Assembly: GCA_021792185.1 (NCBI GenBank)
Contig: JAJYVD010000021.1
Coordinates: 1-36,016, forward strand
Origin: Nitrospirota bacterium
GTDB lineage: Bacteria; Nitrospirota; Thermodesulfovibrionia; Thermodesulfovibrionales; Dissulfurispiraceae
Length of the DNA stretch: 36,016 nucleotides
Direction: 5' to 3'
The number at the start of each line of letters is the position of its first letter. Position 1 is the stretch's first letter. Below are positions 5,238 to 36,016 of this stretch, piece after piece. The translations under genes were made by a program, and so were the position numbers. Under the pieces are notes generated by a model, which worked only from the letters and a program-made list of their open reading frames with translations, searched no databases and was not told the DNA's origin.

Positions 5238-6385
5238 GGCGTTTTAAAATCGTTATCGAATTTTGTGGAATAAAAACCAATCACACGGAAATCATGGAAA
5301 CAATAAATATTTCGTTTAAGCAAATGTGCTGCCTCATCATCGGACAGCCTGTCTTTCGACAAAAGAGTAGGCCCTGAAATAGCGTTTTTCATATGATCTA
5401 TGGCGGTGTATATTCCGATTACCTGCCGGGCATCTGACGAAGCGAGCGGATTCTGATAACGGCAGTAAACTTCCTCTTTGTGATATCCGAGTTCGTGAAC
5501 AGCGCTATAAGGCATCTCGCCTGCTGAATAGAGGCTTATCAGCATATAACCGTCTTCCGTTTCACGGGCAAGGCCGCTATATGAGAGTTTTATATCACGT
5601 TGTCTGTCCGCAATGTGAGTGCCGTTTATATTGATCTTCTGGTGCTCCCTTATAACTTTCCATTCCGATGCAAGGAACTTTACATCTCTCTCCCTGTCGC
5701 CCGGAGACCGTTTCAAGCTGAAATGATACTCATATAACACTCCATCCAGAAAACTCATTACCTCCGCCGGAAGAATTCTCTTTTGAACGATATCGGTTTC
5801 GGATGACGCCATTACCCTGATTCTCTCCGCAATCCCCTTGACGGCAAGCTCATGCTCATAAAATCCGTGCTGCGTAAAGTCAAAGTCATAAAAGGCATCG
5901 CGGCTGATTATGATGCCTTCGGGTCTCGCCTCATTGCACAGCCTCGCCGCTTTATTGATATCACTCGAAAGAAAATCAGTTTTTTTATTGCGCCCCTCAT
6001 GCAGCTCTATCTGAAATACATATCCCGCGCTTATACCGTATCCCAGCTTAAGATTTATAGAATATCCGAGGTCTGATAGATACTTCAACTGAACATCCTT
6101 GAAACGATCATTAATATGAGGTATTGTCTCATGCAAAATCGTATTGAGGTTATCGAAGCGCTCTCTTGAGGATTTAATAAGGTGAATTATCACGACACCG
6201 TCGCCGTTGGGTTTTACAAATGTCTTTTTTTTATCGAGTCCTGGCATTGAACTAAAAATACCGTAGAAATCCGACATAAACTCCTGAATGACATACGACG
6301 CCTCGGTTCTTTCACTCCATTGGGTAAACCCACGGATATCGAGAAACATGATTATCGCGTAATGTCTCGCTGCTATCTTTCCCAT
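5234..6385 (-). CDS. class III adenylate/guanylate cyclase domain protein
   Basis: The N-terminal ~165 residues form a class III nucleotidyl cyclase domain: IIMFLDIRGFTQWSE with metal-binding Asp16, PNGDGVVI with Asp62, and SSDINKAARL with the transition-state Asn144 and Arg148 (numbering from ATG 6385). It therefore looks catalytically complete, probably making cAMP. The C-terminal ~200 residues match no domain I recognise and contain no membrane segment, so the protein looks soluble. A longer reading from TTG at 6433 would add 16 residues, but ATG at 6385 has GAGGG 8 nt upstream and is preferred. It is the first gene of a minus-strand set with the membrane protein and acyl-CoA synthetase, and is divergent from htpG. 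Confidence 0.85.
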   Translation of the reverse strand: MGKIAARHYAIIMFLDIRGFTQWSERTEASYVIQEFMSDFYGIFSSMPGLDKKKTFVKPNGDGVVIIHLIKSSRERFDNLNTILHETIPHINDRFKDVQLKYLSDLGYSINLKLGYGISAGYVFQIELHEGRNKKTDFLSSDINKAARLCNEARPEGIIISRDAFYDFDFTQHGFYEHELAVKGIAERIRVMASSETDIVQKRILPAEVMSFLDGVLYEYHFSLKRSPGDRERDVKFLASEWKVIREHQKININGTHIADRQRDIKLSYSGLARETEDGYMLISLYSAGEMPYSAVHELGYHKEEVYCRYQNPLASSDARQVIGIYTAIDHMKNAISGPTLLSKDRLSDDEAAHLLKRNIYCFHDFRVIGFYSTKFDNDFKTP

Positions 6386-6458
6386 GACATCAACCCTCAT
6401 GCTTATTGTAATATGTAAATGGAAGCGGGTCAAATAAAAACTTCAAAGCATTGCAGTC

Positions 6459-6464
6459 TTGACT
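6459..6464 (+). promoter_or_regulatory. possible -35 element for htpG
   Basis: TTGACT stands 30 bp upstream of the CIRCE element. The matching -10 is weak (A-rich AAAATAG region around 6484-6490), so only the -35 half is well supported. Confidence 0.35.
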
Positions 6465-6493
6465 TTTTCCGCCATTCTGTCAAAAAATAGATT

Positions 6494-6520
6494 TTAGCAC
6501 TCTCTTTGCGAGAGTGCTAA
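6494..6520 (+). promoter_or_regulatory. CIRCE operator (HrcA binding site)
   Basis: TTAGCACTC (6494-6502), 9 bp, then GAGTGCTAA (6512-6520): an exact match to the canonical CIRCE inverted repeat bound by the heat-shock repressor HrcA. It sits 27 bp upstream of the htpG ATG, inside the expected promoter/5' UTR zone. It implies that htpG is repressed by HrcA and induced on heat or unfolded-protein stress. Confidence 0.95.
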
Positions 6521-6547
6521 AATCCTATCGAGAGGTGATTAATAACC

Positions 6548-8464
6548 ATGACAATGCAAAAACACGAATTCAAAACCGAGATCAAACAACTCCTCGACTT
6601 AATGATCCACTCGCTTTATTCGCACAAAGAAGTATTCCTCAGAGAGCTAATCTCAAACAGCTCCGACGCCATAGATAAGGCACGCTACGAATCCCTTACA
6701 AACCCGGATATCATGGAAGGCGGAGCCGAATGGAAAATAAAGATAACCGCGGATAAGGACGCCGGCACTCTCACAGTCAGCGACAACGGCACAGGCATGA
6801 CAGAGGAAGAAATAATCAAGGCGCTCGGCACAATAGCCCACTCCGGAACAAAGGAATTTATCAAGGCATTGCAGGACGCGAAACTCAACGACAATCCGGA
6901 ACTCATAGGCCAGTTCGGGGTCGGATTCTATTCATCATTTATGGTTGCGGATAAGGTCGCCGTAATATCCCGCAAGGCAGGCTCTAAAGATAAACAGGCA
7001 GTCCAATGGGAATCAAGCGCAGACGGCTCCTTTACAGTCGGAACCGCTGAAAAAGAGACGAGAGGCACGGATGTAATCCTTCATCTTAAAGAAGACGCCA
7101 AAAAATATCTCGAACTATGGGAGATAAAAAGTATCGTAAAAAAATATTCGGATTTTATCGAGCATCCTATTGTCATGGACATCGAAAAAGAAGAGGAGTC
7201 GTCTCTTAAAAAGGGTGAAAAAATAAAGGTAAAAGAAGAGGAAACCCTCAACTCCAGAAAAGCGCTCTGGCTCAAGGGAAAGGACGAAATCTCCCATGAG
7301 GAGCACAACGAATTTTACCGCCATATATCCCATGACTTCGCTGACCCCGCAAAGATAATACACTACAAGGCCGAAGGCACTTCGGAATTCACGTCTCTTC
7401 TCTACATACCGTCAAAGGCCCCTCATGGAATCCTCTTCAGGGATTACAAGATAGGGCCCATGCTTTATGTGAAAAGGGTCAAGATAATGGACAACTGCGA
7501 GGACATCATCCCTCCGTATCTCAGGTTTGCAAAAGGCGTCGTGGATTCGTCCGACCTGCCTCTAAACGTATCGCGCGAAATGCTCCAGAACAACAGGCAG
7601 GTCGAGGTCATCAAAAAAAGCATCACTAAAAAAATACTCGATACCCTTTCCGAGATGAAGCAGAACGACTACGAAAAATACATATCCTTCCATAAAGAAT
7701 TCGGCAGGGTGCTCAAGGAAGGCCTCCATTACGACTTTTCGAGGCGCGAGTCCATAGCAGACCTGCTTCTCTTTGAATCCACGAAAACAGAGCCGGATAA
7801 ATACACCACAATGCAGAACTATGTCGAAGGCATGAAGGAAAAGCAGGATGAAATTTATTACATATCCGCACCTACTCGGGAAGAGGCGCTCCAGTCCCCT
7901 TACCTCGAAAACCTTCTCGATAAAGGATATGAAGTCCTTATCATGACCGACGAGATAGACGACCTTCTCATGGCGGGTTTTGAATACAAAGGCAAAAAAC
8001 TCAAGTCAGTCATAAAGGGAGACGTGTCCTTTGAAGGAAAGGATAAAAAGGAGCGCGAGGCAGAAACAAAAGAATTTGCCGGACTCATCAGCCTCATCAA
8101 AGATATATTGAAGGACGATATAAAAGACGCAAGGCTTTCATCGAGGCTTAAGGATTCTCCTTGCTGCCTTGTGGCCGACGAGGGAGATATAGACCCGCAG
8201 ATGGAAAGGGTCTTCAGGGCAATGGGTCAGGAGCCTCCAGTGAGCAAGAGAATACTTGAGATAAACGCGTCTCATCCTCTGTTTTCGGCAATGAAGGCGG
8301 CTTATGAAAAAAGCGCCGGAAGCGCGGAACTCGCGGAGAATATAAGGCTGCTTTACGATCAGGCGCTTATCCTCGAAGGCTCGAAACCAAAGAATCCGGC
8401 TGAATTCGCGAAATCCGTCGCAAAACTTATGGCCGAGGTAATCGAGAAAAACGCGGTTAAGTGA
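6548..8464 (+). CDS. htpG: molecular chaperone HtpG (bacterial Hsp90)
   Basis: ATP-dependent dimeric chaperone acting in the cytoplasm. The 638-residue length and order are standard: an N-terminal GHKL ATPase domain with SNSSDAIDKARYESL (catalytic Glu/Asn helix), DNGTGM and GQFGVGFYSSFMVADKV lid motifs, the middle domain with PLNVSREMLQ, and a C-terminal dimerisation domain ending in a helical tail. The ATG at 6548 has AGAGGTGAT about 8 nt upstream. Regulation is by the CIRCE operator just upstream. No convincing terminator follows; the Fic gene begins 77 bp later with its own likely promoter. Confidence 0.98.
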   Translation: MTMQKHEFKTEIKQLLDLMIHSLYSHKEVFLRELISNSSDAIDKARYESLTNPDIMEGGAEWKIKITADKDAGTLTVSDNGTGMTEEEIIKALGTIAHSGTKEFIKALQDAKLNDNPELIGQFGVGFYSSFMVADKVAVISRKAGSKDKQAVQWESSADGSFTVGTAEKETRGTDVILHLKEDAKKYLELWEIKSIVKKYSDFIEHPIVMDIEKEEESSLKKGEKIKVKEEETLNSRKALWLKGKDEISHEEHNEFYRHISHDFADPAKIIHYKAEGTSEFTSLLYIPSKAPHGILFRDYKIGPMLYVKRVKIMDNCEDIIPPYLRFAKGVVDSSDLPLNVSREMLQNNRQVEVIKKSITKKILDTLSEMKQNDYEKYISFHKEFGRVLKEGLHYDFSRRESIADLLLFESTKTEPDKYTTMQNYVEGMKEKQDEIYYISAPTREEALQSPYLENLLDKGYEVLIMTDEIDDLLMAGFEYKGKKLKSVIKGDVSFEGKDKKEREAETKEFAGLISLIKDILKDDIKDARLSSRLKDSPCCLVADEGDIDPQMERVFRAMGQEPPVSKRILEINASHPLFSAMKAAYEKSAGSAELAENIRLLYDQALILEGSKPKNPAEFAKSVAKLMAEVIEKNAVK

Positions 8465-29160: not shown

Positions 29161-29799
29161 TTGTCCAAGGTTTTTATAGGCAAGCTCATTGCGCAAGATA
29201 AGGAGTACTTTCTGAACAGATCTGACACAAAGGATTTCACTCATAACATCCAAAGGCAGGTCAATAGTGCAGGAAAATCCTTCGGAACCTGGTTACACGA
29301 TCTTTGGAAAGTGCTTCCCTCGAGAGATGGTCAGTCACTGCTTAAGTACATCGTTTATCGGCTTGAAGATTCAGATAATATCTCAATATCAGCGAGAAGG
29401 AAAAAGTTCTTGTTTTACACAAAAGGCATTCTGCTCTTTGCGGCGGCGGTATCCCTGACAGTGCTCTTAACCAGAAAATTTTTTCTTCCGAGCGATACCT
29501 ATTGGGTGAGTGAAGCAACTCATACCCTTTTCGAAACTTTCAGCGGTTTCATCGCAATTATCATAGGCATCATATTGTCATGGGAATATTCCACATCAGG
29601 CAAAAAAACATCCTCTTCCTTGTCTATGCTTTTTTTTCAGTCGGCATTCTCGATTTCTTCTATGCCTTCTCTAATCATTGCCATAACTTGTTCGTCTGGT
29701 ATCACTCATCAGGCGCCCTGCTTGGGGCCTTTTTCTTTTTTATTTCAATGTTTGTTTATCGTGCCGATAAATCTTATGATGACCAGTTGGGCTGGATAA
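29161..29799 (+). pseudogene. N-terminal part of the histidine kinase, out of frame with its C-terminal part
   Basis: From TTG at 29161 (AGGAT upstream; a TAG at 29152 excludes a longer start) the frame reads a soluble ~85-residue head, a membrane segment (LFAAAVSLTVLL), then THTLFETFSGFIAIIIGIILSWEYSTSGKK. At the A7 run (29602-29608) the natural continuation (NILFLVYAFFSVGILDFF) lies in the -1 frame. Downstream of the run this frame encodes an unlikely Ser-rich tail to 29799. It is therefore the first ~149 residues of the sensor, separated by an apparent 1-nt deletion, an assembly error or recoding. Confidence 0.65.
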
Positions 29800-31058
29800 G
29801 AAAATTCTCGATCTTTTCCGGAATCTTTATGATTCTTCTCTTTGCAGTTGTGTCCCACGCATTTTATTCACACGTCCCCGACGTTCTATCAGTATCATTG
29901 CCTCACCATACCCATGTTTCCTTGGCAAAAGGCAAGTTCAGTTCCTTTATCTATGCGGTTAATTACACCTCCTGCGTGCTTTATCTGTCCGCAGGAATTC
30001 TTTTCATCAGGGGTTTTCTTAAAACCAATGACGTCATTTACCTTATTTTCGGGATATCTGCGCTCCTCTTTTTTATGAGCGAGCTTTTTTTTGCTTTTTC
30101 AAGTTTATGGGACCCTATGTGGTGGTACTGGCATGTCATAAAAGTGATTATTTTTGGAGGCCTTCTCCTTGGACTTGCCTATGGATTTACAAAGACCTTT
30201 TACAGGCTTTACACATCTAAAACGCAATTGGCAAATCTGCTTGAAAAAATCGAAGGGAAGAATATTGAAATAGAGAAAGCCTATGTCACTTTGAAGGAGA
30301 CACAGAAGTATCTCAGTGAATCTGAAAAGCTTGCTTCAATCGGGAAAATGGCGGCGGTTCTGGCTCACGAAATCAGGAATCCGCTGTGCGCGATCTCTAA
30401 TTCAATAGGCATTTTAAAGAATTACAATTTACATACTGAAGAAAACAATGAACTTCTCGGCCTTGTTGAAGGCGAAACGGAGAGGCTGAACCAGCTTACC
30501 GAAGATTTCCTGAGTTTTGCTAGGCCATCGCAACTCAGAAGAAATGAAACGAATCTGAATTCATTGCTTGCTGAAACGCTCTTTCTTATGGATACTGAAA
30601 ACACTAAAAGCCGCAGAATTATATTTCAGAAATTATTCGCGCCCGATATTCCGCTTCTCATGCTGGACGAGAGTAAGCTGAAGCAGGTTTTCATTAACAT
30701 TCTGATGAATGCTGTTCAGGCAATGCCTGAGGGAGGAACGATTTCGGTCCAGACGCTTTATAAAAAATCCGAGGATGAGGTTGAGATAATTTTTATAGAT
30801 ACGGGAACAGGGATGTCCGAGGATGTGCTTTCGCAGGTATTTCAGCCTTTCTATACGACAAAGGATAAGGGATTGGGGTTGGGGCTAAATATTGTTCATA
30901 AAATTGTTAAAGAGCATGGTGGATACATTGCCCTATCAAGTGAAGAGGGTAAAGGCACAGAAATTAAGTTGAGCTTTCCAATAAATCCCAAAATTCCTCA
31001 GCCGGACGCGCGTAATAACGAGGGGACAATCCCTAACATTAGCTTAACAAATGACTGA
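29580..31058 (+). CDS. membrane sensor histidine kinase
   Basis: Autophosphorylating sensor, partner of the NtrC-type regulator whose gene overlaps its end by 8 bp. The open frame encodes 492 residues: about six membrane segments (11-30, 40-60, 75-94, 122-145, 151-172, 184-203) resembling a MASE-type membrane sensor, a coiled linker (~210-250), the H-box LAHEIRNPL (His263), and ATPase motifs NILMNAVQAM (N), DTGTGMS (G1), FQPFYTTKDKGLGLGLNIV (F, G2). No PAS domain is seen. If joined to the upstream fragment across the A7 run, the full protein would be about 630 residues with one or two more membrane segments. ATG 29580 lies inside the broken region and has no Shine-Dalgarno, so this start is nominal. 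Confidence 0.85.
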   Translation: MGIFHIRQKNILFLVYAFFSVGILDFFYAFSNHCHNLFVWYHSSGALLGAFFFFISMFVYRADKSYDDQLGWIRKFSIFSGIFMILLFAVVSHAFYSHVPDVLSVSLPHHTHVSLAKGKFSSFIYAVNYTSCVLYLSAGILFIRGFLKTNDVIYLIFGISALLFFMSELFFAFSSLWDPMWWYWHVIKVIIFGGLLLGLAYGFTKTFYRLYTSKTQLANLLEKIEGKNIEIEKAYVTLKETQKYLSESEKLASIGKMAAVLAHEIRNPLCAISNSIGILKNYNLHTEENNELLGLVEGETERLNQLTEDFLSFARPSQLRRNETNLNSLLAETLFLMDTENTKSRRIIFQKLFAPDIPLLMLDESKLKQVFINILMNAVQAMPEGGTISVQTLYKKSEDEVEIIFIDTGTGMSEDVLSQVFQPFYTTKDKGLGLGLNIVHKIVKEHGGYIALSSEEGKGTEIKLSFPINPKIPQPDARNNEGTIPNISLTND

Positions 31059-32412
31059 AATGACGAAAATACTTGTTATCGATGACCAGATTGGTATGCG
31101 AAAAAGCCTAAGCATACTGCTGAAAAAAGAGGGTTTTCATGCCGACACGGCTGAAAATGGCGAGCAAGCGATCGACTATTTAAAAAAGAGTTCTTATGAC
31201 CTTGTCATCACAGACATGAAAATGTCGCCCGGCACGGGCTTGGATATTCTTTACTATGTTAGAGAACGGCATCCGCAAACGGACGTAATAATTATGACCG
31301 GATACGGCACAGTGGACTCCGCTGTGTTGGCCATGAAAATGGGGGCATTCGATTATATCCCTAAGCCGTTCAACAACGAGGAAATACTGCATAGAGTCAG
31401 AAAATCCATGAATCACCTTGAAATAGTAAAGGATATGCCTTCTTTTCAAAAAAGAACAGGCGCAGAAAACAATAAGATTCCCATTTTAGGTATAAGCGCG
31501 GCAATAAAAGAAATAGTGGCTGTGGTGCAGAAAATCTCGAAAACAGACATTTCAGTATTAATCACCGGAGAGACCGGAACAGGGAAGAGCCTCATCGCCA
31601 AGACAATTCACAGTCTTAGCCGCAGGGCTAACAAGCCATTTATCTCAATTAATTGCGCTTCTGTCCCGGAAAATCTACTCGAGAGTGAACTCTTCGGTCA
31701 CGAAAGGGGCGCTTTCACCGGCGCACTTCTCGAAAGAAAAGGACTGTTTGAAGCGGCTGAAGGCGGTTCGATATTACTCGATGAGATAGGAAGTATGCCT
31801 CTTTCAATGCAGGCGAAATTACTGGATGTTCTTCAGGAACAGGAGATACGGAGAATAGGCAGCAACAAGAGTAAAGCTATAGATGTAAGGGTTATTGCCG
31901 CCACGAATTCAGACCTTAATAGAGCGATAGATACCGGAGCGTTTCGGAGCGATCTGTATTATCGAATAAAAGTCGGCCATATTCATATGCCTCCTCTCCG
32001 GGAACATACCGAAGACATTCCTTTTCTCGCAAAGCATTTTCTGGAATCCGCTATGGGAAAGCTGGATAAAACTGACATGCGATTCTCTCCTGAAGCGCTC
32101 GACTTTCTTCAAAACTATAAATTTCCCGGAAATGTCAGAGAACTTGCAAATGCTATCTCAGGAGCGGTTACTGTTTCAGAAGGCAATATTATTTCCGATC
32201 AGGATTTAGCGCTAACTCTCACAAGCAGTCTTTTTGAAATGCAAAAATATCCAGAAGATGATACGCAACCCGGTAGTCTCGAGGAATGGGAAAAAGAGAT
32301 AATTATTGAGAGCATCAAGAAAAATGCGGGCAATCTCACCAAAGTATGCAGCGAATTGAAAATCGGCAGGACTACACTTTGGAGAAAAATGAAAAAATAT
32401 AACCTTCAATAA
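31051..32412 (+). CDS. NtrC-family sigma-54-dependent response regulator
   Basis: Transcription activator of 453 residues in three domains: receiver with ILVIDDQ and phospho-acceptor Asp55 (LVITDMKM), Lys105 in IPKPF; AAA+ domain with Walker A GETGTGKS (173-180), the sigma-54 contact loop GAFTGA (220-225) and Walker B GSILLDEIG; and a Fis-type helix-turn-helix (NLTKVCSELKIGRTTLWRKMKKYNL) at the end. All key residues are intact, so it should activate sigma-54 promoters after phosphorylation by the upstream kinase. I found no clear -24/-12 promoter in the gaps nearby, so the targets may lie elsewhere. Confidence 0.96.
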   Translation: MTEMTKILVIDDQIGMRKSLSILLKKEGFHADTAENGEQAIDYLKKSSYDLVITDMKMSPGTGLDILYYVRERHPQTDVIIMTGYGTVDSAVLAMKMGAFDYIPKPFNNEEILHRVRKSMNHLEIVKDMPSFQKRTGAENNKIPILGISAAIKEIVAVVQKISKTDISVLITGETGTGKSLIAKTIHSLSRRANKPFISINCASVPENLLESELFGHERGAFTGALLERKGLFEAAEGGSILLDEIGSMPLSMQAKLLDVLQEQEIRRIGSNKSKAIDVRVIAATNSDLNRAIDTGAFRSDLYYRIKVGHIHMPPLREHTEDIPFLAKHFLESAMGKLDKTDMRFSPEALDFLQNYKFPGNVRELANAISGAVTVSEGNIISDQDLALTLTSSLFEMQKYPEDDTQPGSLEEWEKEIIIESIKKNAGNLTKVCSELKIGRTTLWRKMKKYNLQ

Positions 32413-32425
32413 ATACTGCGCATTG

Positions 32426-32722
32426 CTATTTGAACCATTGAATCAAATCTACTGTAAGAAGAAATTTTTGCCCCTCTTCTTCCTTTACTTTCTGGTAGAA
32501 TTCGCATCTTCTGCAGTCTTCATATTTCTTTGCAAAACTGCCTTCTACTTTGCCTCCGCACATAGTACCGGCAACTATCCAGCAAACTCTGCCGGCGTTC
32601 TTGCCGCCATGAGCAGAATCGAGCTTTGTGTAGGTCGCCGCGGGACAGACTCCAAGTTCCTTGGCTTTTTCCCCGCCAACTTCCCTCCAGCAATTCATAA
32701 ACTCCCAGCAGTTTCTTTTCAT
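32426..32722 (-). CDS. two-CW domain protein
   Basis: A 98-residue Cys/Trp protein of the two-CW family: NCWEFMNCWREVGGEKAKEL, GVCPAAT, GGKNAGRVCWIVAGTMCGG and CRRCEFYQKVKEEEG. The repeated Cys-Trp pairs and extra cysteines suggest metal or redox binding. Relatives occur next to or fused with signalling domains in anaerobes. The gene converges on the response regulator with a 13-bp gap and no terminator. It may belong to the same signalling unit, but only proximity supports that. Confidence 0.85.
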   Translation of the reverse strand: MKRNCWEFMNCWREVGGEKAKELGVCPAATYTKLDSAHGGKNAGRVCWIVAGTMCGGKVEGSFAKKYEDCRRCEFYQKVKEEEGQKFLLTVDLIQWFK

Positions 32723-32793: not shown

Positions 32794-33327
32794 TTACATC
32801 CCCTCTCTGAGAATCCATATATCTGTCTTCGGGGTTATCCAATATGAGTTTTCGCCATAATGACTACGCATATCGGTTTCCGAACTAAAAACGAATCGTA
32901 TCAGATACTTAAACATCACATTAACAGCGCCCTCATTGTTTGTATATAGGCATGAAAGATTAAGCGGTATATTCACGATATACGCCATTCGCAGCCCTTT
33001 CAGCGGAGGGATTCGGGCGTTATCCGCACTCCCAAGCCGAAAAGCGCTTAAATCCTTCCATCGACCGAGAATTTCTGTCTGGGCATAAAAGTTCTCACGA
33101 TGTTCTTTCAAGACAATGGTTTTGTCCGACCGATTATATAACATTATATCTACTTTGTAATTTCCATCGCCCTTATATGAAATATTCTCGACTGTTATAT
33201 CGAGATATTCGACAGATAGACCGACTGCAAAACAGTTACTTGTACCCATAACAATAAGCAGTGCGGTTGCAAAAAAGCTGTACAAGTTTTCACTTGACAG
33301 TGACATTAAATACCGCGGTATCTTCAC
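32794..33327 (-). CDS. exported protein of unknown function
   Basis: The 177-residue protein has a signal-peptide-like start (LYSFFATALLIVMGTSNCFA, cleavage likely after CFA) and a beta-rich remainder with no recognised domain (NYKVDIMLYNRSDKTIVLKE, TDIWILREGM at the end). GTG at 33327 gives a basic n-region (KIPR) and AAAGGG 9 nt upstream; ATG at 33306 is the alternative and lacks basic residues. Its start overlaps the end of the YtkA-like gene, so it is the last gene of the ABC-led operon. The two-CW gene downstream is 71 bp away. Confidence 0.65.
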   Translation of the reverse strand: MKIPRYLMSLSSENLYSFFATALLIVMGTSNCFAVGLSVEYLDITVENISYKGDGNYKVDIMLYNRSDKTIVLKEHRENFYAQTEILGRWKDLSAFRLGSADNARIPPLKGLRMAYIVNIPLNLSCLYTNNEGAVNVMFKYLIRFVFSSETDMRSHYGENSYWITPKTDIWILREGM

Positions 33328-33703
33328 CTTTTTTCCCTTTATTTATCCTGACATATATTTCCCATGATCCCGGCATACTGAGGTTCAGTCCCTCAACGAG
33401 ATATACTCCTTTGCCGATTCCCTTAACAATAGTTTGTCCGGTCATCCCATGCTCATGTGACGGCATCCACGGGACTATTTCAATATCCAGTTTATCCTTT
33501 ATGGGCGCCTTTGTCTTGCTGTCCCCAATGAATAGTTTCATGCTGTTCTTACCAACCTTCACCTGTGTTCCTGTGAATTCAAGCGAAACAAAATACAACC
33601 CTTGCTCGGTCTTATTTTGCTGCACGGTTAGTCCAAACAAAAAGAAGCTTAGGATCACAAGTAAAACTGCAGGAAGCCTGAGTTTAAATGCTCGTTCAAT
33701 CAT
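33290..33703 (-). CDS. YtkA/FixH-like membrane-anchored protein
   Basis: The 137-residue protein has one N-terminal membrane anchor (LPAVLLVILSFFLFGLTV) and a periplasmic domain with KAPIKDKLDIEIVPWMPSHEHGM and GVYLVEGLNLSMPGSWEIYVRI. The His-rich MPxHxHGM loop and MPGxWxxxV strand mark the YtkA-like/FixH family, whose members are linked to copper or cytochrome oxidase assembly. A metal role is inferred, not shown. AGGGGG about 6 nt before the ATG is a good Shine-Dalgarno. It lies 19 bp after the upstream paralogue gene. Confidence 0.8.
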   Translation of the reverse strand: MIERAFKLRLPAVLLVILSFFLFGLTVQQNKTEQGLYFVSLEFTGTQVKVGKNSMKLFIGDSKTKAPIKDKLDIEIVPWMPSHEHGMTGQTIVKGIGKGVYLVEGLNLSMPGSWEIYVRINKGKKGEDTAVFNVTVK

Positions 33704-33722
33704 GTTATCCCCCTTTTAATGT

Positions 33723-34367
33723 TTAGTGCGGCGGCATTGGAATCATGGTAGGGACTTTATTATTCGAGAATGCCGCCTGTTTCAAAATCTCCTGATCGCT
33801 GATGAAGTATGGTTTCAGATACATATACACATCATTTACCCTTTCAATCACTTCTTCTTCTTTGAAAACACTCTGCGGCACGACAAACATAGAGATATGA
33901 ACCCGCACATGCATATACCCGTACATCTGATAAAAAGTGTATTTGATATCGCGTTTTACAGTAATTATTTTCTTATATATGTGTTGCCCTTTCTCAAGCT
34001 TAATGATCTGTTCGTGCCTCTCTTTTTCTTTCTCACGAATCGGCACTTCCGTCCAAAATGTTCCGGTTTGAACATAGGCCCTGGTCTCAGGATAGGTAGC
34101 ATACACCGGTTCATCGGAGAGAACATCAACTTTTAGGGTTACATCATAGTTTTCCGGAGAACCGGCAATATCCCCGGCATCCTGTATATCAGGGAAGACC
34201 ATATAAAATGCCAATCTTTCAAGACGCTGTTTTTTAGCCTCTCTTTCTCTTATAATTGATTCCTGTTTTTGGCCTATATAATAGTCTCCGATAAGAAAAA
34301 GCGCAATTGTGCACAAAACCGCAATGATCAACTTTCTTTTTCTCATCATGCCCGAAAAAAATCTCAT
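33723..34367 (-). CDS. single-pass membrane protein, paralogue 2
   Basis: A 214-residue protein with one N-terminal membrane segment (KLIIAVLCTIALFLIGDYYIG), a charged helix (KQESIIREREAKKQRLERL) and a beta-rich periplasmic domain. It is a clear paralogue of the next gene upstream: DYYxGxKQExxIRxREAK, AFYM, DEPVYxxYPExRAxxQxGT, YMHxRxxxxM, SxFKExEVxER, YLKPxxI and KVPxxMP are shared in order. No family is recognised. Within the operon it sits between its paralogue (75-bp gap) and the YtkA-like gene. Confidence 0.75.
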   Translation of the reverse strand: MRFFSGMMRKRKLIIAVLCTIALFLIGDYYIGQKQESIIREREAKKQRLERLAFYMVFPDIQDAGDIAGSPENYDVTLKVDVLSDEPVYATYPETRAYVQTGTFWTEVPIREKEKERHEQIIKLEKGQHIYKKIITVKRDIKYTFYQMYGYMHVRVHISMFVVPQSVFKEEEVIERVNDVYMYLKPYFISDQEILKQAAFSNNKVPTMIPMPPH

Positions 34368-34442
34368 AAAGGCTTCGCCAAGCTATCTTGATTTTCGCAT
34401 CAAATATTTTTTCATTCTCTTCTCAGCAGATTCCCTCCGTCA

Positions 34443-35135
34443 TTACTTGTTCCAGTTTCTGAATCCTGTTATAGGCATGTAAACAGGCACCTTGGTATCG
34501 CCCCAGTCCATCACCTCCCTGATTTCTCTCTCCGTTATCCAGAATGGCTTAAGGTAAACATACGTATCGCTTTTCCGCTCGAATACCTCTCCTTCCTTAA
34601 ACCCGCTCTCCGGTAATACCGACATCCTGACAAGGAACCTGATATGCATATATTTCGGAATAAGATAACGGTTATACGGTATCTTTGGATCTATGGTCAA
34701 TATTCTATGAAACCTATGCGGGCCGGTATCGAGTTTATACATCTGTTCCTTTTTTTCCAAGCCCGCGTCTGCAACGGGTATTTCCCTCCATGAAATAGTG
34801 CCGACCTGCATGAAGGCCCTGACTTCAGGATAACCTATATACACCGGTTCGTCTGCGACATTATCTATTCTGATTGTCGCAATATATTTCCAGCTTTTCC
34901 GGATATCTTTAGTTTCCCGTATATCGCGCACATCGACAGAGAGCATATAAAAGGCCTGCTCTTGAAGCCGCTTTATTTTTGCTTCTCTCGCCCTGATGAC
35001 CGCTTCCTGTTTTTCGCCAACATAGTAATCAATCACCAGCCCAATAATGACTGCTCCCAGCAATAAGAGCAAAGCCTTCCGGCTCATGAGTAGTGAAAGT
35101 ATCTTTCTCATACTATTTTTTCTTACTGGTTCCAT
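34443..35135 (-). CDS. single-pass membrane protein, paralogue 1
   Basis: A 230-residue relative of the neighbouring gene: membrane segment ALLLLLGAVIIGLVIDYYVG near residues 21-40, charged helix KQEAVIRAREAKIKRLQEQ, then a beta-rich domain ending DTKVPVYMPITGF. The start ATG shares one base with the ABC ATPase stop (TAATG), a sign of coupled translation; ATG at 35111 is possible but has no Shine-Dalgarno. Two copies of a membrane-anchored periplasmic domain next to an ABC ATPase suggest a two-subunit partner for a transporter or mechanotransmission complex, but no permease is visible. Confidence 0.75.
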   Translation of the reverse strand: MEPVRKNSMRKILSLLMSRKALLLLLGAVIIGLVIDYYVGEKQEAVIRAREAKIKRLQEQAFYMLSVDVRDIRETKDIRKSWKYIATIRIDNVADEPVYIGYPEVRAFMQVGTISWREIPVADAGLEKKEQMYKLDTGPHRFHRILTIDPKIPYNRYLIPKYMHIRFLVRMSVLPESGFKEGEVFERKSDTYVYLKPFWITEREIREVMDWGDTKVPVYMPITGFRNWNK

Positions 35136-35866
35136 TAATTAGCCGGGCAGGGAGTGCAGCATACGGCTTCGTCTTTCAGGAATACGCCGTCTTTTAGGTG
35201 CACAATCCTGTCAGCCTTATTTGCTATTTCAAGGTCATGTGTCGAAAAGACTATAGCGATGCTTTTTTCCTTAGAGAGCTTACGGAATGTATCCACCACA
35301 AATAAGCGGTTATCCCTGTCAAGGTTTGCCGTAGGCTCGTCCGCCAGGATCATTGCAGGATGCGTTATGAGAGCCCGCGCAATAGCAACTCTCTGTATTT
35401 CACCGCCGCTCAGTTGACTCGGCATATGATATATTCGATGGCCTAATCCCAGCGACTTAATAATATCTATCCCTTCACTCTTTATATTCCCATTGCGGTT
35501 CTTCGGTTTAAAAAAATTGAAGGGCAACAGAGTATTTTCCAAAACATTTAACATTCGAAGCGGTTTTGCGTCCTGAAAGATAAAACTGAATTTTTCTCTC
35601 CGGAAATGAACAAGGTCTTCTTCCGACAATACATCTATTCTAACCCCTTCAAGGATAACTTCTCCCGCACTGGGCCGGTCCAGAGAACCGATGATATTTA
35701 ATAACGTCGTCTTGCCCGAACCGCTGGGCCCAACAAGGGCAACCAGCTCTCCTTTGTTGATCGTTAATGAAACATTCTCAAGAGCAGTCACGGTACCGGA
35801 AGGTAAATTAAAAGCCTTGTTAACCTGCCGTAACTCCAACAAAGGCGTAGTATTCGCTTTTTCCAT
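35135..35866 (-). CDS. ABC transporter ATP-binding protein (LolD/MacB-like)
   Basis: ATPase subunit of 243 residues with Walker A GPSGSGKT (46-53), Q-loop FIFQDAKPL, signature LSGGE (152-156), Walker B MILADEPTAN and the H-loop STHD. The short form with ADEPTANLD is typical of the LolD/FtsE/MacB group that powers MacB-type permeases. ATG at 35866 is chosen because GGAGGG lies 6 nt upstream; the longer start at 35881 precedes that site. It is the first visible gene of the operon. The usual permease is missing in the window and could lie just beyond the right end, although about 150 bp upstream show no coding. Confidence 0.93.
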   Translation of the reverse strand: MEKANTTPLLELRQVNKAFNLPSGTVTALENVSLTINKGELVALVGPSGSGKTTLLNIIGSLDRPSAGEVILEGVRIDVLSEEDLVHFRREKFSFIFQDAKPLRMLNVLENTLLPFNFFKPKNRNGNIKSEGIDIIKSLGLGHRIYHMPSQLSGGEIQRVAIARALITHPAMILADEPTANLDRDNRLFVVDTFRKLSKEKSIAIVFSTHDLEIANKADRIVHLKDGVFLKDEAVCCTPCPAN

Positions 35867-35905
35867 AATCATCCCTCCCATTGTGTTCTAACGTATTGTC
35901 AAAAG

Positions 35906-35928
35906 TTTTTAAGCTAAAAGCTTTAAAA
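35906..35928. promoter_or_regulatory. AT-rich inverted repeat upstream of the ABC operon
   Basis: TTTTTAAGCT and AGCTTTAAAA (9 of 10 paired) around 3 bp, about 40 bp before the ABC start. A TTGACA occurs on the minus strand next to it (35898-35903), without a good -10. It may be an operator. The rest of 35929-36016 shows no gene. Confidence 0.35.
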
Positions 35929-36016
35929 CCCTTGTCCAGTAATACATTGCTTCAAATAAGCTTGCCTCCCCCTATTTGTTTAGGGTTAAGTTAGTAGTGC
36001 GACCCACCAACAAGGA

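Follow-up and report, generated by a model that had tools for sequence, protein, structure and literature searches.

A Nitrospirota ABC gene cluster as the apparent downstream half of a thiocyanate dehydrogenase locus, with a putative role in copper loading

Introduction

Thiocyanate dehydrogenase (TcDH) is a copper enzyme (PMC6504805), and a Thioalkalivibrio transcriptomics paper left its copper acquisition and incorporation to be determined (PMC5744179). In Thioalkalivibrio, the TcDH gene is followed by two permease/ATPase pairs of the ATP-binding cassette (ABC) type, hypothetical proteins, a kinase, and a sigma-54 regulator (PMC5328954, PMC5744179; Berben et al. 2017), and the published flanking genes are copCD, tatA, and fccAB. 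One of the hypothetical proteins has a single-helix anchor, and the one after it has an export signal (PMC5744179). On thiocyanate, the log2 change was 7.47 for TcDH, 4.54 to 6.75 for the ABC genes, and 5.07 for the anchored hypothetical protein; for the exported one, the text gives 4.0, but in the table the same locus tag is listed as a kinase (PMC5744179). Here we analyze a contig of a Nitrospirota bacterium (GenBank assembly GCA_021792185.1, contig JAJYVD010000021.1, positions 1 to 36,016), taken in its entire length of 36,016 bases and called the window below, which carries an ABC ATPase gene, two paralogous genes (P1 and P2), a YtkA-like gene, and a gene for an exported protein (Exp) in a tight cluster. 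The assembly has 89 contigs and 2.65 Mb and is 99.36% complete.

A cluster of this kind is already published, namely, that of Thioalkalivibrio, so the word "uncharacterised" in the first-pass annotation of the window does not fit the cluster type as a whole: the counterpart has been described and is induced on thiocyanate. Both the Thioalkalivibrio cluster and the loci studied here have an anchored and an exported hypothetical protein (P1/P2 and Exp in our case), a kinase, and a sigma-54 regulator, a likeness of layout and topology that suggests homology of the hypothetical proteins. In contrast to Thioalkalivibrio, one Nitrospirota clade adds a third permease, and the Nitrospirota loci carry beta-sandwich paralogues in two or three copies. 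A YtkA-like protein is usual in these loci, NosL occurs in some, and a two-CW protein belongs to those of one clade. The second system for comparison is NosDFY/NosL, where ABC genes and NosL likewise stand beside a copper beta-propeller enzyme and where NosL of denitrifiers serves N2O reductase as a dedicated Cu(I) chaperone (PMC6530538). The permeases of the TcDH loci differ in being of the FtsX/MacB type and in coming with anchored beta-sandwich proteins, and NosL is found in three of the loci only. With LolCDE and MacB the cluster shares LolD-like ATPases and the FtsX C-terminal and MacB_PCD periplasmic domains, but its scores lie below the LolD and LolC/E cutoffs; among its genes, none resembling MacA, TolC, or LolA was noticed, no model search having been aimed at them. 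Finally, the TcDH loci of Thiohalobacter and Guyparkeria also have a kinase, a sigma-54 regulator, and paired paralogous periplasmic proteins, CusB1 and CusB2, but these are of the HlyD superfamily and serve a Cus-type resistance-nodulation-division (RND) pump instead of an ABC machine (PMC6504805).

Results

A truncated thiocyanate dehydrogenase locus

The cluster in the window consists of five tightly packed open reading frames (ORFs) on the minus strand:

35135..35881, minus strand: ATP2, LolD/MacB-like ABC ATPase, 248 amino acids from the first start (the ATG at 35866 is equally possible)
34443..35135, minus strand: P1, paralogue 1, with one N-terminal membrane helix and a periplasmic beta-sandwich, 230 amino acids
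33723..34367, minus strand: P2, paralogue 2, with the C terminus IPMPPH, 214 amino acids
33290..33703, minus strand: YtkA-like periplasmic protein with the motif PWMPSHEHGM, 137 amino acids, PF13115
32794..33327, minus strand: Exp, exported protein without an anchor, probable third and divergent P1/P2 paralogue, 177 amino acids

All five are conserved in four relatives from one scan of species genomes (loci L009 to L012; 73 to 81% identity in P1), and sequence conservation thus marks them as genes and not chance ORFs, in line with the tight five-gene set seen in the ORF list alone. The gene order, the same in the four relatives, is tcdh, permease 1, ATPase 1, permease 2, permease 3, ATP2, P1, P2, YtkA, and Exp, and tcdh is followed directly by permease 1 in 11 of 11 loci. 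The first protein in L009 to L012 is a beta-propeller of the Tat (twin-arginine translocation) type. In a phmmer search of the PDB, the L009 protein matched the solved TcDHs 8q9x (E value of 1.4e-174) and 5f75, the latter from Tv. paradoxus (2.7e-160), over nearly its whole length. The 13 active-site residues of 5F75, taken from PMC6504805, are all present in the 11 Nitrospirota homologues with at least 54% identity (L009 to L012, L049, L051 to L053, L085, L086, and L089). By these sequence criteria, the upstream propeller protein of the relatives is a TcDH, and the window genes are the 3' half of a TcDH locus.

Other propellers were considered for the upstream protein and rejected. NosZ or the lactonase-type L-NosZ was suggested by an HH motif and by NosL, but the L-NosZ model gives 17.6 bits against a cutoff of 700, compared with E values down to 1e-174 for TcDH structures; matches to hydrazine synthase beta and YncE-type propellers cover only about 60 residues. 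A distant homologue with 35% identity and all 13 active-site residues (L088, 9296 to 10762) has an AcrB-family RND pump and a multicopper oxidase in its neighborhood. Two TcDH-like proteins (L096, 11539 to 13383, and L087, 3393 to 5123) have Gln in place of the active-site His482, as does the solved sequence 8yu5, and may have another activity.

In L009, permeases 1 to 3 all score above the cutoff for PF02687, and permeases 2 and 3 do so for PF12704 as well. The loci L009 to L012, L049, and L051 have three permeases with two ATPases, and there are two of each in genomes G211, G263 (permease 2 split into two ORFs), and G063 (across two contigs). The window has one ATPase and no TcDH, as the contig ends first. 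That ATPase, ATP2, is 88 to 90% identical to ATPase 2 of the four TcDH loci. Its initial description as LolD/MacB-like is right insofar as it is an ABC_tran protein (113.7 bits) whose nearest models are those of LolD, but it stays under their equivalog cutoffs (TIGR02211, 209.9 versus 307.75 bits; PRK11629, 179.4 versus 360 bits).

Two features at the contig end explain why no permease is seen:

35869..35889, minus strand: final codons of permease 3 (RTQWEG and stop; six codons plus the stop), its sole remnant
35891..36016, minus strand: end of a repeat, probably a mobile element; it interrupts permease 3, and the contig stops with it

Permease 3 of the relatives ends in the same residues. The element end sits 9 bases upstream of the ATPase ORF. 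The 126-base repeat occurs at 11 places in the genome, in two sequence variants (six copies identical and five 86 to 87% identical); ten copies were seen at a contig end and the eleventh on contig C8, and the flanks differ among the eight copies compared. The repeat resembles the terminus of a mobile element at which the assembly breaks off. A TTGACA at its outer edge might be part of an outward promoter. The earlier remark that no permease is present holds within the window, but since the window is a whole contig ending just upstream of the ATPase, the absence is a positional artefact: in the relatives, three FtsX-type permeases and a further ATPase occupy this place.

Co-occurrence with thiocyanate dehydrogenase

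Homologues of P1 were found in 10 of 395 Nitrospirota genomes, with two matches each, and TcDH of at least 54% identity in 11 of the 395; two more genomes have weaker homologues (45% and 35%), and the remaining 18 genomes matched by the TcDH query give short, weak matches. Nine of the ten P1 genomes carry TcDH, the tenth being the window's own (hypergeometric P of 9e-16 for the overlap, among genomes that are related and not independent). As for TcDH genomes lacking P1, the contigs of G168 and G295 end before or at that place. No such ABC set was seen in the 16 and 20 kb examined of G220 (45%) and G350 (35%). ATPase 2 adjoins the paralogues in nine relatives whose contigs reach there, and it was not found alone in them.

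Among 72,556 plasmid records, seven gave TcDH-like matches, near full length in two, both from Methylocella tundrae, and a P2-like sequence was found in the same two records and in no other. The record examined has a run of four genes, encoding a TcDH-like protein, a permease, an ATPase, and P2, which is the smallest form of the locus that we saw. The TcDH-like protein has Gln at the His482 place, as in L087. Judged by gene content, permease, ATPase, and P2 form a portable unit found with TcDH-type genes in two phyla.

A family of beta-sandwich paralogues

P1 and P2 are 42% identical across 202 columns, with an hhalign probability of 100%, and so are tandem paralogues, as had been noticed at first sight. 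None of P1, P2, and Exp belongs to a Pfam or NCBIfam family above cutoff, which agrees with the initial impression that the pair matches no known family. The exported protein, first listed as a separate component, is indeed there, but it does not appear to be unrelated to the pair: in hhalign comparisons aligned over the sandwich core, Exp matched P1 with a probability of 88% (E value of 2.9e-6) and P2 with 58%, while YtkA as a control gave 0.2 to 7%. The predicted strand order of Exp fits the P1/P2 sandwich, in a poor model with a predicted local distance difference test score (pLDDT) of 43. Exp is thus probably a third paralogue, one that either shed the anchor or lacked it from the start. 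In the distant clade L052 to L054, Exp lies directly beside P1/P2; in L049, it had no match.

The IPMPPH tail is present in 11 of 11 P2 proteins examined, from two phyla and including one Methylocella plasmid. A [YF]MH motif is shared by P1 and P2, with the His in 21 of 21 proteins and the Met in 20, one row having masked residues. The P1 of the window and its five closest homologues have no cysteine, and neither P1 nor P2 proteins share an invariant one. In the P1 model, a long helix at the N terminus leads into a beta-sandwich (mean pLDDT of 68.9, with parts of the core above 80). Its best fold match is the luminal domain of TMEM106B (Z score of 8.4; root mean square deviation of 3.2 over 122 residues), followed by ApaG, LEA, and FixG-related domains (Z scores of 7.1 to 8.1); since such a sandwich resembles many unrelated domains, the modeled fold was dropped as a clue to function. 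By sequence, no solved relative of P1 was found (best E value of 0.74).

These data bear on one rival explanation of the ABC unit, that it is an ordinary MacB- or Lol-type exporter, for copper or cyanate efflux or for lipoprotein sorting, which is coregulated with TcDH and does not touch it. Such a role would suit ATPases and permeases that fall in the MacB/LolCDE/FtsX group. We nevertheless regard it as quite improbable: the scores stay well under the LolD and LolC/E cutoffs, no lipobox was seen by eye in P1 and P2, and the Methylocella four-gene run comes without an annotated MacA or TolC, although an RND adaptor gene lies several kilobases off.

Copper-related partners and the export of thiocyanate dehydrogenase

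The YtkA-like protein is confirmed as such by PF13115 (48.9 bits versus a gathering cutoff of 25.9). In an alignment of eight, PWM followed by H.H is common, with TWM in one row. No YtkA-like protein was found in L052, and the match in L054 is weak. In L086, one frame (5739 to 7496) runs from a sigma-54 response regulator into a YtkA-like domain; the fusion is topologically odd and possibly due to a lost stop codon. NosL (PF05573 above cutoff) is present in L010, L012, and L054. In L010 and L012, the NosL-containing gene lies between Exp and the two-CW gene, where L009, L011, and the window have no further gene. The proteins encoded there (L010, 10463 to 11998; L012, 10572 to 12032) have an unusual architecture, a NosL domain with a C-terminal region weakly like Phenol_MetA_deg; the two are separate genes in L054.

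A simple scan, without a trained predictor, classed the signals of the 11 Nitrospirota TcDHs as having a Tat motif in 7 and as Sec-like, without twin arginines, in 4 (L052, 7263; L053, 17257; L086, 5062; L089, 9298). The hydrophobicity peak of the signal is 2.5 to 3.0 in the Sec-like proteins versus 1.3 to 1.6 in the Tat type. All four Sec-like proteins have the full set of 13 active-site residues, and all four genes precede the ABC genes. A Sec-like TcDH would be exported unfolded and would therefore need its copper in the periplasm, which calls for a periplasmic loader.

The main rival to copper loading is that the ABC machine and its partners remove zero-valent sulfur from TcDH or pass it to a carrier, preventing clogging, and that copper is loaded by other proteins. 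TcDH releases elemental sulfur, as published, and a dedicated sulfur acceptor gene has been proposed beside TcDH in other bacteria (PMC6504805). Moreover, the copper genes near TcDH vary (CopCD, Cus, and NosL), while the ABC set is common to Thioalkalivibrio, Nitrospirota, and Methylocella, and NosDFY itself has been proposed as the sulfide supplier for the N2O reductase center (PMC6530538). A persulfide carrier would be expected to keep a cysteine, but none is invariant in P1/P2; the NosL and YtkA-like partners indicate copper; and Thiohalobacter and Guyparkeria have TcDH without an ABC set in the available description (PMC6504805). On balance, we consider sulfur removal unlikely.

Regulation and flanking genes

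Three further features adjoin the cluster in the window:

32426..32722, minus strand: two-CW domain protein, closing gene of the cluster, 98 amino acids (NF045718, 108.6 bits, cutoff of 35)
31051..32412, plus strand: sigma-54 type response regulator, convergent, with a GAFTGA motif visible in the translation
29161..31058, plus strand: membrane histidine kinase, convergent, in two frames (29161 to 29799 and 29580 to 31058)

All three adjoin the cluster in relatives too, and in L009 to L012, the two-CW gene after Exp is likewise followed by the convergent regulator and kinase. The position of the two-CW gene after the cluster is conserved in L009 to L012, that is, at the cluster end within one clade. 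The regulator is 77 to 79% identical across the four TcDH loci. A sigma-54 -24/-12 site with zero mismatches lies 149 to 166 bases before the tcdh start used in L009 to L011 and 116 bases before it in L053; sites in L012 and L085 deviate at one position. Scores as good as these occur in 0.5 to 3.5% of random stretches drawn from the loci themselves. Over 14 loci, the mismatches number zero or one in six, two in four, three in three, and five in one.

State of the locus in this genome

In the window's assembly, TcDH had no match and permeases 1 and 3 had only weak partial ones, permease 2 not having been searched alone. Permeases elsewhere in the genome were rejected as substitutes, the matches on C89, C65, C75, C48, and C33 being just 22 to 33% identical over part of the length. 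For ATPase 1, no locus of this genome above 43% identity was seen among those examined, which are part of 40 ATPase matches. The two kinase frames break near a run of A at 29602 to 29608, where the four relatives have a single open frame of 588 to 599 amino acids; this may be a mutation, a slippage site, or an assembly error.

In this genome, the genes could be a dead remnant that lost tcdh, the permeases, and the sigma-54 promoter to a mobile element and its kinase to a frameshift, a reading compatible with a copper-loading role of the intact locus. Besides the missing TcDH and poorly matched permeases in so complete an assembly, the mobile-element-like end just before the permease 3 stop and the split kinase speak for it, as does the lack of a sigma-54-like site beside the window genes (best, three to four mismatches in the four stretches tested). 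On the other side, the regulator and those cluster genes that are left have open frames, with ratios of nonsynonymous to synonymous substitution rates (dN/dS) of 0.07 to 0.23 relative to L009, at a dS near saturation. Protein change is not raised on the window branch either, the ratio of protein to silent changes being 200:267 codons there versus 121:130 on the L009 branch, with no relative excess. The upstream part may also sit on an unbinned contig, and the frameshift may be an assembly error. We regard a dead remnant as a serious possibility but lean somewhat toward the contrary. Because the remaining genes are open with low dN/dS, the damage is either recent or partly an assembly gap.

P1 had no match in the two other genomes of the same genus or in the 18 other genomes of the same family listed. 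Its nearest copies belong to a different family, which makes horizontal acquisition of the cluster likely.

Discussion

We propose that a MacB/FtsX-type ABC machine with anchored periplasmic partners helps to load TcDH with copper, to which we assign a probability of roughly 0.58. This role is favored because FtsX/MacB-type ATPases and permeases are combined with anchored proteins, a YtkA-like protein, and, in three loci, NosL. Conserved Met and His residues add to the copper theme, in [YF]MH of P1/P2, IPMPPH of P2, and PWM..H.H of YtkA. FtsX/MacB-type transporters generally convert ATP use into motion of periplasmic parts. The LolD-type ATPases and FtsX/MacB-type permeases would form one or two inner-membrane complexes that carry no substrate across the membrane; ATP hydrolysis would instead move the periplasmic partners, P1 and P2 on their one-helix anchors and the free Exp. 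The three would dock on the periplasmic domains of the permeases, accept Cu(I) handed over by NosL, the YtkA-like protein, or both, and assist in inserting the three copper ions into the TcDH beta-propeller, this transfer to TcDH being the putative step that we infer from the comparison. Permease, ATPase, and P2 would be the core, and the remaining genes duplicated copies. The kinase/regulator pair would act at the sigma-54 site before tcdh and switch the cluster on. In the present genome, a mobile element may have severed the upstream half and left the genes stranded, or the partner piece may be missing from the assembly. The first-pass guess of an envelope machine for metal or cytochrome assembly thus points in the right direction for metal, the locus being that of a periplasmic copper enzyme with NosL in three relatives, but not for cytochromes, which find no support in the cluster and lie outside it in L009 and L010.

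A number of observations weigh against copper loading. The authors of the transcriptomics paper weighed copper transport but recognized none of its known features in these genes and did not settle the function (PMC5744179). Insertion of copper in the cytoplasm before Tat export has been argued (PMC6504805), and since 7 of the 11 TcDHs carry the Tat motif and could be loaded before export, a periplasmic loader would have less to do. A blastp search with the L012 NosL protein found none in the loci outside L009 to L012 other than L054, which leaves NosL in three loci only. The ABC machine is not universal for TcDH, because Thiohalobacter and Guyparkeria carry a Cus-type system, and L088 is without an ABC set in its 20 kb and has the AcrB-family RND pump about 5 kb upstream. 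Eight of the 14 loci have no sigma-54 site with fewer than two mismatches, and the genome of the window is without a TcDH match. The Met/His conservation may be structural, and the P1 model is moderately confident, with a common fold.

We tentatively go one step further, at somewhat under even odds. P1, P2, and Exp may be a new family with a single task, linking an FtsX/MacB-type ABC machine with the loading of copper into TcDH-type beta-propellers in the periplasm. The unit of permease, ATPase, and P2 with its IPMPPH tail would then match NosDFY in role but have arisen separately, and copying inside one cluster would have produced its two or three variants, each perhaps for one step or copper ion.

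Judged by the titles and abstract openings of the TcDH literature, we found no paper about Nitrospirota TcDH. No published account was found of the three-permease form, the paralogue family with its invariant tail, or the four-gene minimal form in the literature covered, which excludes subscription journals. The comparison narrows the candidates for copper assembly to one portable unit of permease, ATPase, and P2, and the IPMPPH tail and the [YF]MH motif are named targets for mutagenesis. The Sec-like signals of four TcDHs make a periplasmic loader a concrete need. If the proposal is true, N2O reductase and TcDH, both copper beta-propellers, would each be assembled by an ABC machine together with NosL-type chaperones.

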